In this document: one piece after another, positions 49,028-50,990 of the stretch
Layout: each line of letters starts with the position of its first letter
Numbering within the stretch: position 1 is the first letter of the stretch
Assembly (NCBI GenBank): GCA_016787295.1
Contig: JAEUUX010000176.1
Location: 1 to 54,936 of the forward strand
Direction: 5' to 3'
Source: Chitinophagales bacterium
GTDB taxonomy: Bacteria > Bacteroidota > Bacteroidia > Chitinophagales > UBA2359
DNA: 54,936 nt
Program-made: the position numbers and the translations under genes
Notes under the pieces: generated by a model
Database searches by the model: none
What the model was told of the DNA's origin: nothing
What the model saw: only the letters and a program-made list of their open reading frames with translations

Positions 49028-50170
49028 TTACTTTTCAATTAATTTAGCGCTCACCAAGACCGACTCTACCTTATCAATTGTCTGTTCTGTTAACTCAACA
49101 ATTTGAGGAATAGACAAGCCCAGTTTTTGGTAGCTGCGGATAATGGTATTTTTCAATGTCTCATCCGCCTGCTCTTTTGCTTTTTGATCCGCTTCTTTGG
49201 CACGTTTTTCGGCTAATTCAGCTTTTTCACGAGCTATTTCCGCTTCTTTGGCGCGTTTTTCGGCTGCTAATACTTCTTGTCGTGCTTTTTTTTCTGCCAA
49301 TTCAACTTTTCGGTGAGCTGCTTCAGCTTCTTTTTGAGCAGTGCGTGCTTCTTTTTGAGCAGTGCGTGTTTCTTTCATTGCTTGGAACATACTCACGCCA
49401 AATTCGTGTTGTATCACTCGGTCAAGTATACGATGGCTGTTTTTGGTGTGTTTCATTGGATTGATATTAAGGTGATGACTATTTTGTTTTCGTATCTCAT
49501 CCTCCAAATCTTCGGGCAGTATCATTAGTTCCAACACAAAGAAATGGAGAAACATAGCCTGTTCGCGCGTGTAGTTCGCGCGTTCTGCCAATTCGAGCAA
49601 GTGTTTTTTGTACTCAAAACGTCGCTGTGCATCGCCTTTGGTGTTGATAACACACAAATTTGCCAATACCACCAAAGCAAAAGGATTATCTGAGGCTAAC
49701 AAGGTGGCTTCGGACTGCTTGCGGACTTGATAGGTATTGAATTTATACCGTATGCCCGACCCAAAGTATTCGCATACATATTCGTTGTGTTGTTTCGGAA
49801 CAGTATGGGCGGTGTATATCACCAAAGCTGTAATGGCGTTACCATGTTTTTCTTCTATTCGGCGGTAATAGCGGTACATTCGTTCGGCAATATTTTGCCC
49901 TTTTTCGCCCTGAAACTCGATGTGTATGAACAAATAGTGTGTGGTATCGTCAAGCAGTTTAACTTTAATTAGCTTGTCGGTTGTTTTTTTGCGTTGATGT
50001 TGTTGATCGTTTTGTTCCAGAACAGAAAAAAAGTCTTGTTCCAAATGTTCAAACTCAACACTAAAATCGATAATCCGATACAAGTCGGGGATAAAAAATG
50101 CAATGAAATCGCTGGCTAAGTAAGTAACAATTTCTTTCCAATTTTTATCAAAAGGAATGGCATGACGCAT
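49028..50170 (-). CDS. Rpn-family PD-(D/E)XK nuclease (transposase_31-like), copy 2
   Basis: 380 residues, starting MRHAIPFDKNWKEIV. The nuclease core shows DKLIKVKLLDDTTHYLFIHI with E-x-Q in IEFQGEKGQN and ERMYRYYRRIEE. Residues 255-345 form a long, charged coiled coil of near-repeats (AQKEARTAQKEAEAAHRK, EKKARQEVLAAEKRAKEAE), followed by a C-terminal block (LGLSIPQIVELTEQTIDKV) that matches the end of copy 1 (28136-29191). Rpn proteins act as toxic anti-phage nucleases in E. coli. The two copies here are clearly diverged paralogues, about 30-35 percent identical in the core by eye. mfd lies 115 bases upstream on the same strand. Confidence 0.87.
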   Translation of the reverse strand: MRHAIPFDKNWKEIVTYLASDFIAFFIPDLYRIIDFSVEFEHLEQDFFSVLEQNDQQHQRKKTTDKLIKVKLLDDTTHYLFIHIEFQGEKGQNIAERMYRYYRRIEEKHGNAITALVIYTAHTVPKQHNEYVCEYFGSGIRYKFNTYQVRKQSEATLLASDNPFALVVLANLCVINTKGDAQRRFEYKKHLLELAERANYTREQAMFLHFFVLELMILPEDLEDEIRKQNSHHLNINPMKHTKNSHRILDRVIQHEFGVSMFQAMKETRTAQKEARTAQKEAEAAHRKVELAEKKARQEVLAAEKRAKEAEIAREKAELAEKRAKEADQKAKEQADETLKNTIIRSYQKLGLSIPQIVELTEQTIDKVESVLVSAKLIEK

Positions 50171-50232: not shown

Positions 50233-50697
50233 TTATTGTTTTTTGACATCATCAATAGACAAACCAATGTCGACCAACATGGGAATAATATCCTCCTCCA
50301 TCGTATGGCTAATCTCAAAACTATATTGCCCTTTTTGCATACCAACATTTTTAGCAATAGGAAAACTAACATCCCACATATCGCCCATACCGCTTCCCAA
50401 GTTTTTGCCTGCTGCATCGCGCAAGGGTATACTATAGTTAGCTTTTTGTACTTTTTTGTTGGGAGCAGTACTGACAACCTGAACCGTTAAGGCATCAAAA
50501 GGATAGGCAGTTCCGTATCGCACCAAAAGATTGACATTAGCGGCTGTTATATCGTTTTCTAAATCGGCATTTATAACAACGGTGTTGGTTTTGCTCCAAA
50601 CATAGTTGGGCAAATTGACGTATTGCTCAAAAGCATGCTTGTTGCCACAACCTACCCAAAAAACACAGCTCACCAACAGAATTACAACATATTTCAT
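50233..50697 (-). CDS. gldH: Gliding motility lipoprotein GldH
   Basis: 154 residues. The lipobox FWVGCG follows a hydrophobic stretch, giving a lipoprotein of the cell envelope. The body matches the GldH pattern: YVNLPNYVWSKTNTVV, the paired YPFDALTVQV and YSIPLRDAAGKNLGSGMGDM, then GQYSFEISHTMEEDIIPM and VDIGLSIDDVKK at the end. In Flavobacterium GldH is needed for gliding, though its exact role is unclear. A candidate structured RNA with a terminator ends 30-40 bases upstream of the start, so expression may depend on read-through or on that leader. Confidence 0.9.
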   Translation of the reverse strand: MKYVVILLVSCVFWVGCGNKHAFEQYVNLPNYVWSKTNTVVINADLENDITAANVNLLVRYGTAYPFDALTVQVVSTAPNKKVQKANYSIPLRDAAGKNLGSGMGDMWDVSFPIAKNVGMQKGQYSFEISHTMEEDIIPMLVDIGLSIDDVKKQ

Positions 50698-50734
50698 AGC
50701 CTTTTATTTAGTTGTACAAAAAAATAGACAAAGA

Positions 50735-50953
50735 AAAACCTCTGGAGAAACACCACGAAGGGGGTTAGTCTACAGAGGCCAAAACTAATTATGAAAATAA
50801 GAAAAGCGCCCTAGCCAGAGCCGTTGGCAAACTTCAGACATGCCACCGATGCCAAGTTTGCAAGGGGAAAAGTAACACCTACCCACAAATTCCTACTCTT
50901 TCCGTTTGACGGAAAATACGCTACAGTTCCCAAAAATGAATGGTGGCGGAAAT
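50735..50953 (-). ncRNA. Candidate structured RNA or leader upstream of gldH, about 218 nt
   Basis: A textbook promoter (50960-50990) starts transcription near 50953 on the minus strand and a terminator hairpin ends it near 50735 (CCTCTG at 50773-50778 with CAGAGG at 50739-50744, followed by TTTTTC). Between are further helices: TTTCCGT/ACGGAAA (50897-50916 region) and a long hairpin with arms AAGTTTGC / GCAAACTT (50827-50861). There is no protein frame of note. It could be an independent RNA (a 6S-like regulatory RNA is possible) or a gldH leader with attenuator. I find no tmRNA, RNase P or SRP signature. Confidence 0.6.
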
Positions 50954-50959
50954 TTCAGA

Positions 50960-50990
50960 CAAAGTTAATGCTTGTATTTCGAAAATCCAA
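50960..50990 (-). promoter_or_regulatory. Promoter of candidate RNA (TTG-N20-TAACTTTG)
   Basis: Minus-strand TTG (50988-50990) and TAACTTTG (50960-50967) are 20 bases apart, a full match to the Bacteroidota promoter. The remaining stretch to 51094 has no other feature. Confidence 0.78.

Follow-up and report, generated by a model that had tools for sequence, protein, structure and literature searches.

The window that we analysed is a 54,936-nucleotide stretch of DNA from a Chitinophagales bacterium. Its minus strand carries gldH (50233..50697; PF14109, E 4.9e-24), and upstream of gldH lies what appears from its sequence to be a free-standing transcription unit with a promoter and a terminator of its own. 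The promoter (50960..50990, minus strand) is of the Bacteroidota primary-sigma type, TTG-N20-TAACTTTG; its sequence, TTGGATTTTCGAAATACAAGCATTAACTTTG, runs from TTG at 50990 to TTTG at 50960. A strict form of this promoter, TTG-N17-23-TAnn(n)TTTG, is present upstream of 7 of 9 homologues, as compared to 0.56 expected from dinucleotide shuffles. We placed the 5' end of the RNA about 7 nt past the TTTG box, and from the positions of the promoter and the terminator, we predict a small RNA of about 220 nt (50734..50953, minus strand).

In the direction of transcription, the minus-strand unit has four parts: a 5' part that differs among genera and folds into hairpins at 50899-50915 and 50827-50861 (50818..50953); a conserved core, TGGCTAGGGCGCTTTTCTTATTTTCATAATTAGTTTTG, which is nearly invariant across nine genomes (50780..50817); a terminator hairpin with a conserved 2-nt bulge (50739..50778); and the terminator's T-run (T5, 50734..50738). 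Within the core is a module, TTTCATAATTAGTTTT (50796-50781, minus strand), which we call the anti-start module and propose as a pairing seed. The gldH gene lies outside of the RNA unit and starts 36 nt beyond the T-run. (Between gldH and mfd, the minus strand of the window also encodes a 380-amino-acid protein, at 49028-50170; its match to PF04754 (YhgA-like; E 3.7e-4) is weak, falling just under the cut-off.)

The original prediction, which was made by reading the sequence, had described a minus-strand promoter, a T-tract terminator, the lack of a protein frame, and an end 30-40 bases before gldH. The promoter, the terminator, and the spacing are as described, and we did not find a convincing open reading frame in the unit: the longest internal minus-strand frame has 40 amino acids and a TTG start. 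The original prediction also pointed to several long helices. The helix arms do exist (50739-50748/50769-50778, 50827-50834/50854-50861, and 50899-50905/50909-50915), but the folding stability of the whole unit is no better than that of dinucleotide-shuffled sequence (z = 0.26), so the presence of several long helices is not by itself evidence for an RNA. When we looked for covarying base pairs, as had been proposed, the terminator helix was supported and no other helix was. Instead, the functional signal is the largely single-stranded core at 50817-50780, which had not been remarked upon.

A search of the unit against Rfam (tmRNA, RNase P, SRP RNA, Flavo-1, and others) gave nothing at the gathering score, and allowing E values up to 10 added chance-level matches only. 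This agrees with the earlier impression that the unit does not resemble tmRNA, RNase P, or SRP RNA. Three identities had been offered for it: a 6S-type RNA, a leader controlling gldH, or a new Bacteroidota RNA. The last of these is the right one. That the unit upstream of gldH is a real and previously undescribed small RNA gene, absent from Rfam, is well supported by sequence comparison.

Conservation within one family of Bacteroidia

The 38-nt core, which lies just 5' of the terminator, is nearly invariant in nine genomes from eight genera, all of which belong to one uncharacterised family of Bacteroidia. We will refer to these homologues as type A. Searching 99 relatives with blastn gave strong matches to the 3' third of the unit only, and these were confined to the same family. 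When 396 genomes of the order were searched with a covariance model, strong matches came from the same nine genomes. Scanning 84,980 species genomes for the exact pattern picked out eight of the nine, along with two chance-like matches (in a gamma-proteobacterial MAG and in a clostridial MAG). The core is nearly unchanged among genera except for a variant in two genomes (G016 and G018) that is one T shorter and has altered bases at its end. In contrast, the 5' part varies in sequence and in length (45 to 160 nt), so that the predicted type A RNAs range from 111 to 226 nt. The original prediction had staked itself on conservation in related genomes, and this was found for the 38-nt core and the terminator but not for the 5' part.

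The mean unpaired probability of the core is 0.52-0.74, and it is partly paired in several of the predicted folds. In the alignment of homologues, 93.9% of the cells of the terminator stem are paired, and four of its pairs are substituted on both sides. The covariation score of the terminator was not reached by any of 500 shuffles, and all slid versions were far worse.

We also considered three other identities for the core and rejected them. It does not seem to be a phage-borne element, as the searches that we used found no match in phage records or viral contigs. It does not fit a sigma-54 promoter, as its GG and GC do not have the 10-nt spacing and the TGGC is lost in G004 and G006. Finally, a tracrRNA anti-repeat should have repeated complementary copies, and we found none in the genomes.

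Related small RNAs and their promoters

From weak matches to the covariance model, we traced six further types of small RNAs in the family (types B to G), some of them in tandem. They share a plan with type A, namely UUUUUCAUA(A/G)UUAGUUU followed by a terminator, and their flanks differ. (As DNA, the common module is TTTCATA(A/G)TTAGTTT, directly before the terminator.) As the module was what we searched for, it cannot serve as independent evidence for types B to G, but their terminators, tandem copies, and promoters can.

Type B (GAAGTTGTTTTTCATAATTAGTTTT) is found in G002, G012, and G017, and type C (GAGTAGTTGTTTTTTCCATAGTTAGTTT) is found in G002, G008, G009, G012, G014, and G017; in three genomes, the two types are in tandem. 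Copies of type D (ACTGTAAATGTTTTTCATAATTAGTTTTGGTTAGGTAATTGCCCC) in G012, G017 (two of them), and G019 (L097, L098, and L108) are almost identical, and G002 also has this type. The hairpin that follows type D often lacks a T-run, and this RNA may be processed rather than terminated. Type E is found in G006; type F (GTGGTGCTTTTCATAATAGTTTG and similar) in G001 (in tandem), G015 (three-fold), G011, and G018; and type G in G003 and G013, with a similar one in G018. Overall, 19 of the 20 genomes of the family contain at least one member (the exception is G005). There is one convincing copy in the source genome and two to five copies in each of G001, G002, G012, G015, G017, and G018.

A model search across the Bacteroidota found no clear member outside of the family. 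Weak matches elsewhere in the source genome (L268-L272) look like chance, and those in other Bacteroidota are mostly antisense to the starts of signal-peptide genes or are unrelated terminators. Judging from sequence, type A appears to belong to a set of small RNAs that is peculiar to one family of Bacteroidia; we do not claim that all of the types share a single ancestry.

Upstream of all 9 of the type B and C units, we found TGGCA(C/T)-N5-TTG, which has the form of a sigma-54 (-24/-12) promoter, as compared to 0.005 expected. The sigma-54-like promoter keeps within a narrow range of distances, 21-29 nt upstream of the CATA region, which implies that the RNA would start just 5' of the seed and that type B and C RNAs would be about 65 nt long. 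Type A has no such promoter. A sigma-54 factor is encoded in 19 of the 20 genomes of the family, and a sample of 395 genomes from the class did not contain the combination of a sigma-54 promoter with the module.

Three loci in these genomes contain small repeated units or known RNAs. In G015 (L285, C371:21350-22050), there are three near-identical small units in tandem, each with GAGTTGGTGCTTTTCATAATTACATG and a terminator, which are candidate multi-copy small RNAs. In G002 (L085, C602:2300-3500), AGTTGTTTTTT(C)CATAGTTAGTTTTT is repeated in tandem at least three times, with the copies separated by repeats that have inverted AATAAAC elements, in a region that is partly N-masked. Also in G002, a Flavo-1 RNA (RF01705, 51.5 bits; L041:1855-1939, plus strand, C305) lies about 400 nt from the tandem pair of small RNAs with sigma-54-like promoters.

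The seed and the starts of exported-protein genes

Bacteroidota generally lack Shine-Dalgarno sites, and A-rich surroundings of the start codon are typical of the phylum. The complement of the module, AAAACUAA(U/C)UAUGAAAA (as DNA, AAAACTAA(C/T)TATGAAAA), reads as a start-codon region. We compared the seeds to 459 gene starts from 765 kb, or about 14% of the source genome. The complementarity of the core to these starts peaks when its CAU is set on the AUG, even though the AUG itself was not counted. Furthermore, for all seven seeds, which are not independent of each other, the fit is better to the starts of 129 signal-peptide-like genes (as labelled by a simple hydropathy rule) than to the remaining 330, with p values from 1.5e-5 to 1e-11 (1.4e-5 for type A); for types B to G, these are starts from the source genome and not from the seeds' own genomes. 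Relative to composition-matched shuffles, types B, C, E, and G fit better at p = 0.01 or better, and type A reached only p = 0.06 against shuffled flanks. Also, those matches in other Bacteroidota with no terminator after them mostly fall at the starts of signal-peptide genes.

In contrast to the peak in register and the preference for signal-peptide genes, the comparison of duplex energies was negative: across the 459 starts, the core did not reach a better mean energy than shuffled cores did. We found no near-perfect or conserved target in the family, and 16-mer matches, once copies of the small RNAs were set aside, did not exceed the reversed control. A target search with types A, B, and C gave isolated candidates only, among them one signal-peptide gene each at L261 (G011) and L260 (G015). 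Given the negative energy test and the lack of a perfect or conserved target, we infer the mechanism and do not consider it to be demonstrated.

These negative results would also be expected if the core were a protein-binding or structural element, such as a decoy for an RNA-binding protein (perhaps a ribosomal factor or one of the RRM proteins), with its likeness to start regions being a by-product of its U-rich sequence. The GGCTAGGGCGC part of the core is extremely conserved and has no counterpart in the other types. An AU-rich antisense seed should not need 38 nt to stay nearly identical across eight genera, which could instead reflect binding to a protein or to one conserved partner. However, the CAU(A/G)/UUAG arrangement recurs in seven types of small RNAs with differing flanks, and their antisense fits gene starts in register. 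We consider a protein-binding or structural role to be possible but unlikely.

It is far less plausible that the RNA is a leader or attenuator that controls gldH via its terminator. The distance of 36 nt from the terminator to gldH would fit such a role. The source genome is the only one in which gldH adjoins the type A RNA; we found no conserved position upstream of gldH among the homologues. The flanking genes are unrelated and differ among genera (except among the related G007, G010, and G015), and in four genomes (G001, G004, G006, and G018), the next downstream gene is convergent to the RNA. Thus, type A is a free-standing gene and is independent of gldH.

We give even less credence to a 6S-type RNA, which would bind RNA polymerase by mimicking an open promoter. 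The length of about 220 nt would fit, and no 6S RNA is annotated in these genomes, but the unit has no match to the 6S families of Rfam (RF00013 and RF01685) even at E values up to 10, it lacks a long bulged hairpin closing the 5' and 3' ends, and its homologues can be only 111 nt long, the conserved part being close to the 3' end. Canonical 6S RNA (RF00013) was found in none of the 20 genomes of the family, and the control search works in other phyla. Similarly, a tiny gene on the plus strand (ATG AAA ATA AGA AAA GCG CCC TAG, encoding MKIRKAP) is scarcely credible: five genomes keep the antisense frame open for seven codons, but 1-nt indels break or change it in G004, G006, G016, and G018, and both the terminator and the promoters are oriented for the minus strand.

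The near-invariant core, the variable 5' part, the covarying terminator helix, and the differing neighbours together argue for a trans-encoded small RNA, rather than a gldH leader or 6S RNA. With moderate confidence, we propose that type A is one of a family-specific set of such RNAs, whose seed would pair over the start codons of mRNAs for exported proteins and block their translation. Because the seed mirrors the start of exported-protein messages, it probably switches off their translation. Each of these small RNAs would be transcribed from a promoter of its own and would have a mostly single-stranded seed with the complement of a start-codon region, followed immediately by an intrinsic terminator. 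The seed, UUUUCAUAAUUAGUUUU, together with the U-rich stretch that precedes it, would pair with the translation start of the mRNA (AAAACUAA(U/C)UAUGAAAA and similar), and this pairing would keep the ribosome off. An RRM-type RNA-binding protein may help or oppose the pairing; RRM_1 proteins, which have the fold of RbpB, are encoded in 17 of the 20 genomes and in all 13 genera of the family.

The proposed mechanism resembles that of GibS and FopS from Bacteroides thetaiotaomicron, which bind over the start codons of mRNAs and block translation (PMC7366714, PMC11697453). FopS has experimentally proven targets, mainly surface transporters (susC mRNAs), and is opposed by the RRM protein RbpB (PMC11697453). 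Like GibS and FopS, the RNAs described here are intergenic Bacteroidota small RNAs with a terminator at the end and RRM_1 proteins in the host. They also have related copies in some of the genomes and a single-stranded seed that may be complementary to start-codon regions. The seed of FopS is at its 5' end, whereas in this family the seed is directly before the terminator. Also unlike FopS, type A has a long and variable 5' part and its targets are putative, and some of its relatives have sigma-54-like promoters. The hosts of GibS and FopS belong to a different lineage than this family, and the likeness is one of description.

In function, types B and C may be analogous to RybB and MicA, the sigma-E-dependent small RNAs of enteric bacteria (PMC1804206), as they are short, appear to be under an alternative sigma factor, and have predicted targets among mRNAs for envelope proteins. 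However, they are not homologous to RybB and MicA, the sigma factor is a different one, and a role for Hfq is not established. It is only a guess that types B and C are induced by envelope stress and spare the envelope, as the sigma-E-driven RNAs do. The sigma-54 regulon of Flavobacterium psychrophilum covers envelope quality control and exported proteins, and one of its members, Rfp36, is a putative regulatory RNA (PMC9723704). Types B and C are similar to Rfp36 in having a sigma-54-like promoter upstream of a Bacteroidota small RNA (again by description), but the combination of this promoter with the module is absent from the 395 sampled genomes of the class.

Our results add a small RNA family that Rfam does not contain. 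Its borders are clear, its seed is nearly invariant, and some of its relatives have sigma-54-like promoters. To our knowledge, very few small RNAs are known in Bacteroidota outside of Bacteroides and Flavobacterium. The results also offer a testable rule, namely that the seed mirrors the starts of genes for exported proteins. If this is right, then it would show that control by small RNAs can be aimed at the start codon itself in bacteria that do not use Shine-Dalgarno pairing. More tentatively, small RNAs under both primary-sigma and sigma-54 promoters might carry a near-generic complement to the starts of signal-peptide genes and so turn down the synthesis of exported proteins as a class. 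We think such a family-wide system is rather doubtful, but if it exists, it would be a counterpart of the enteric sigma-E/RybB/MicA arm in a phylum without Shine-Dalgarno initiation.
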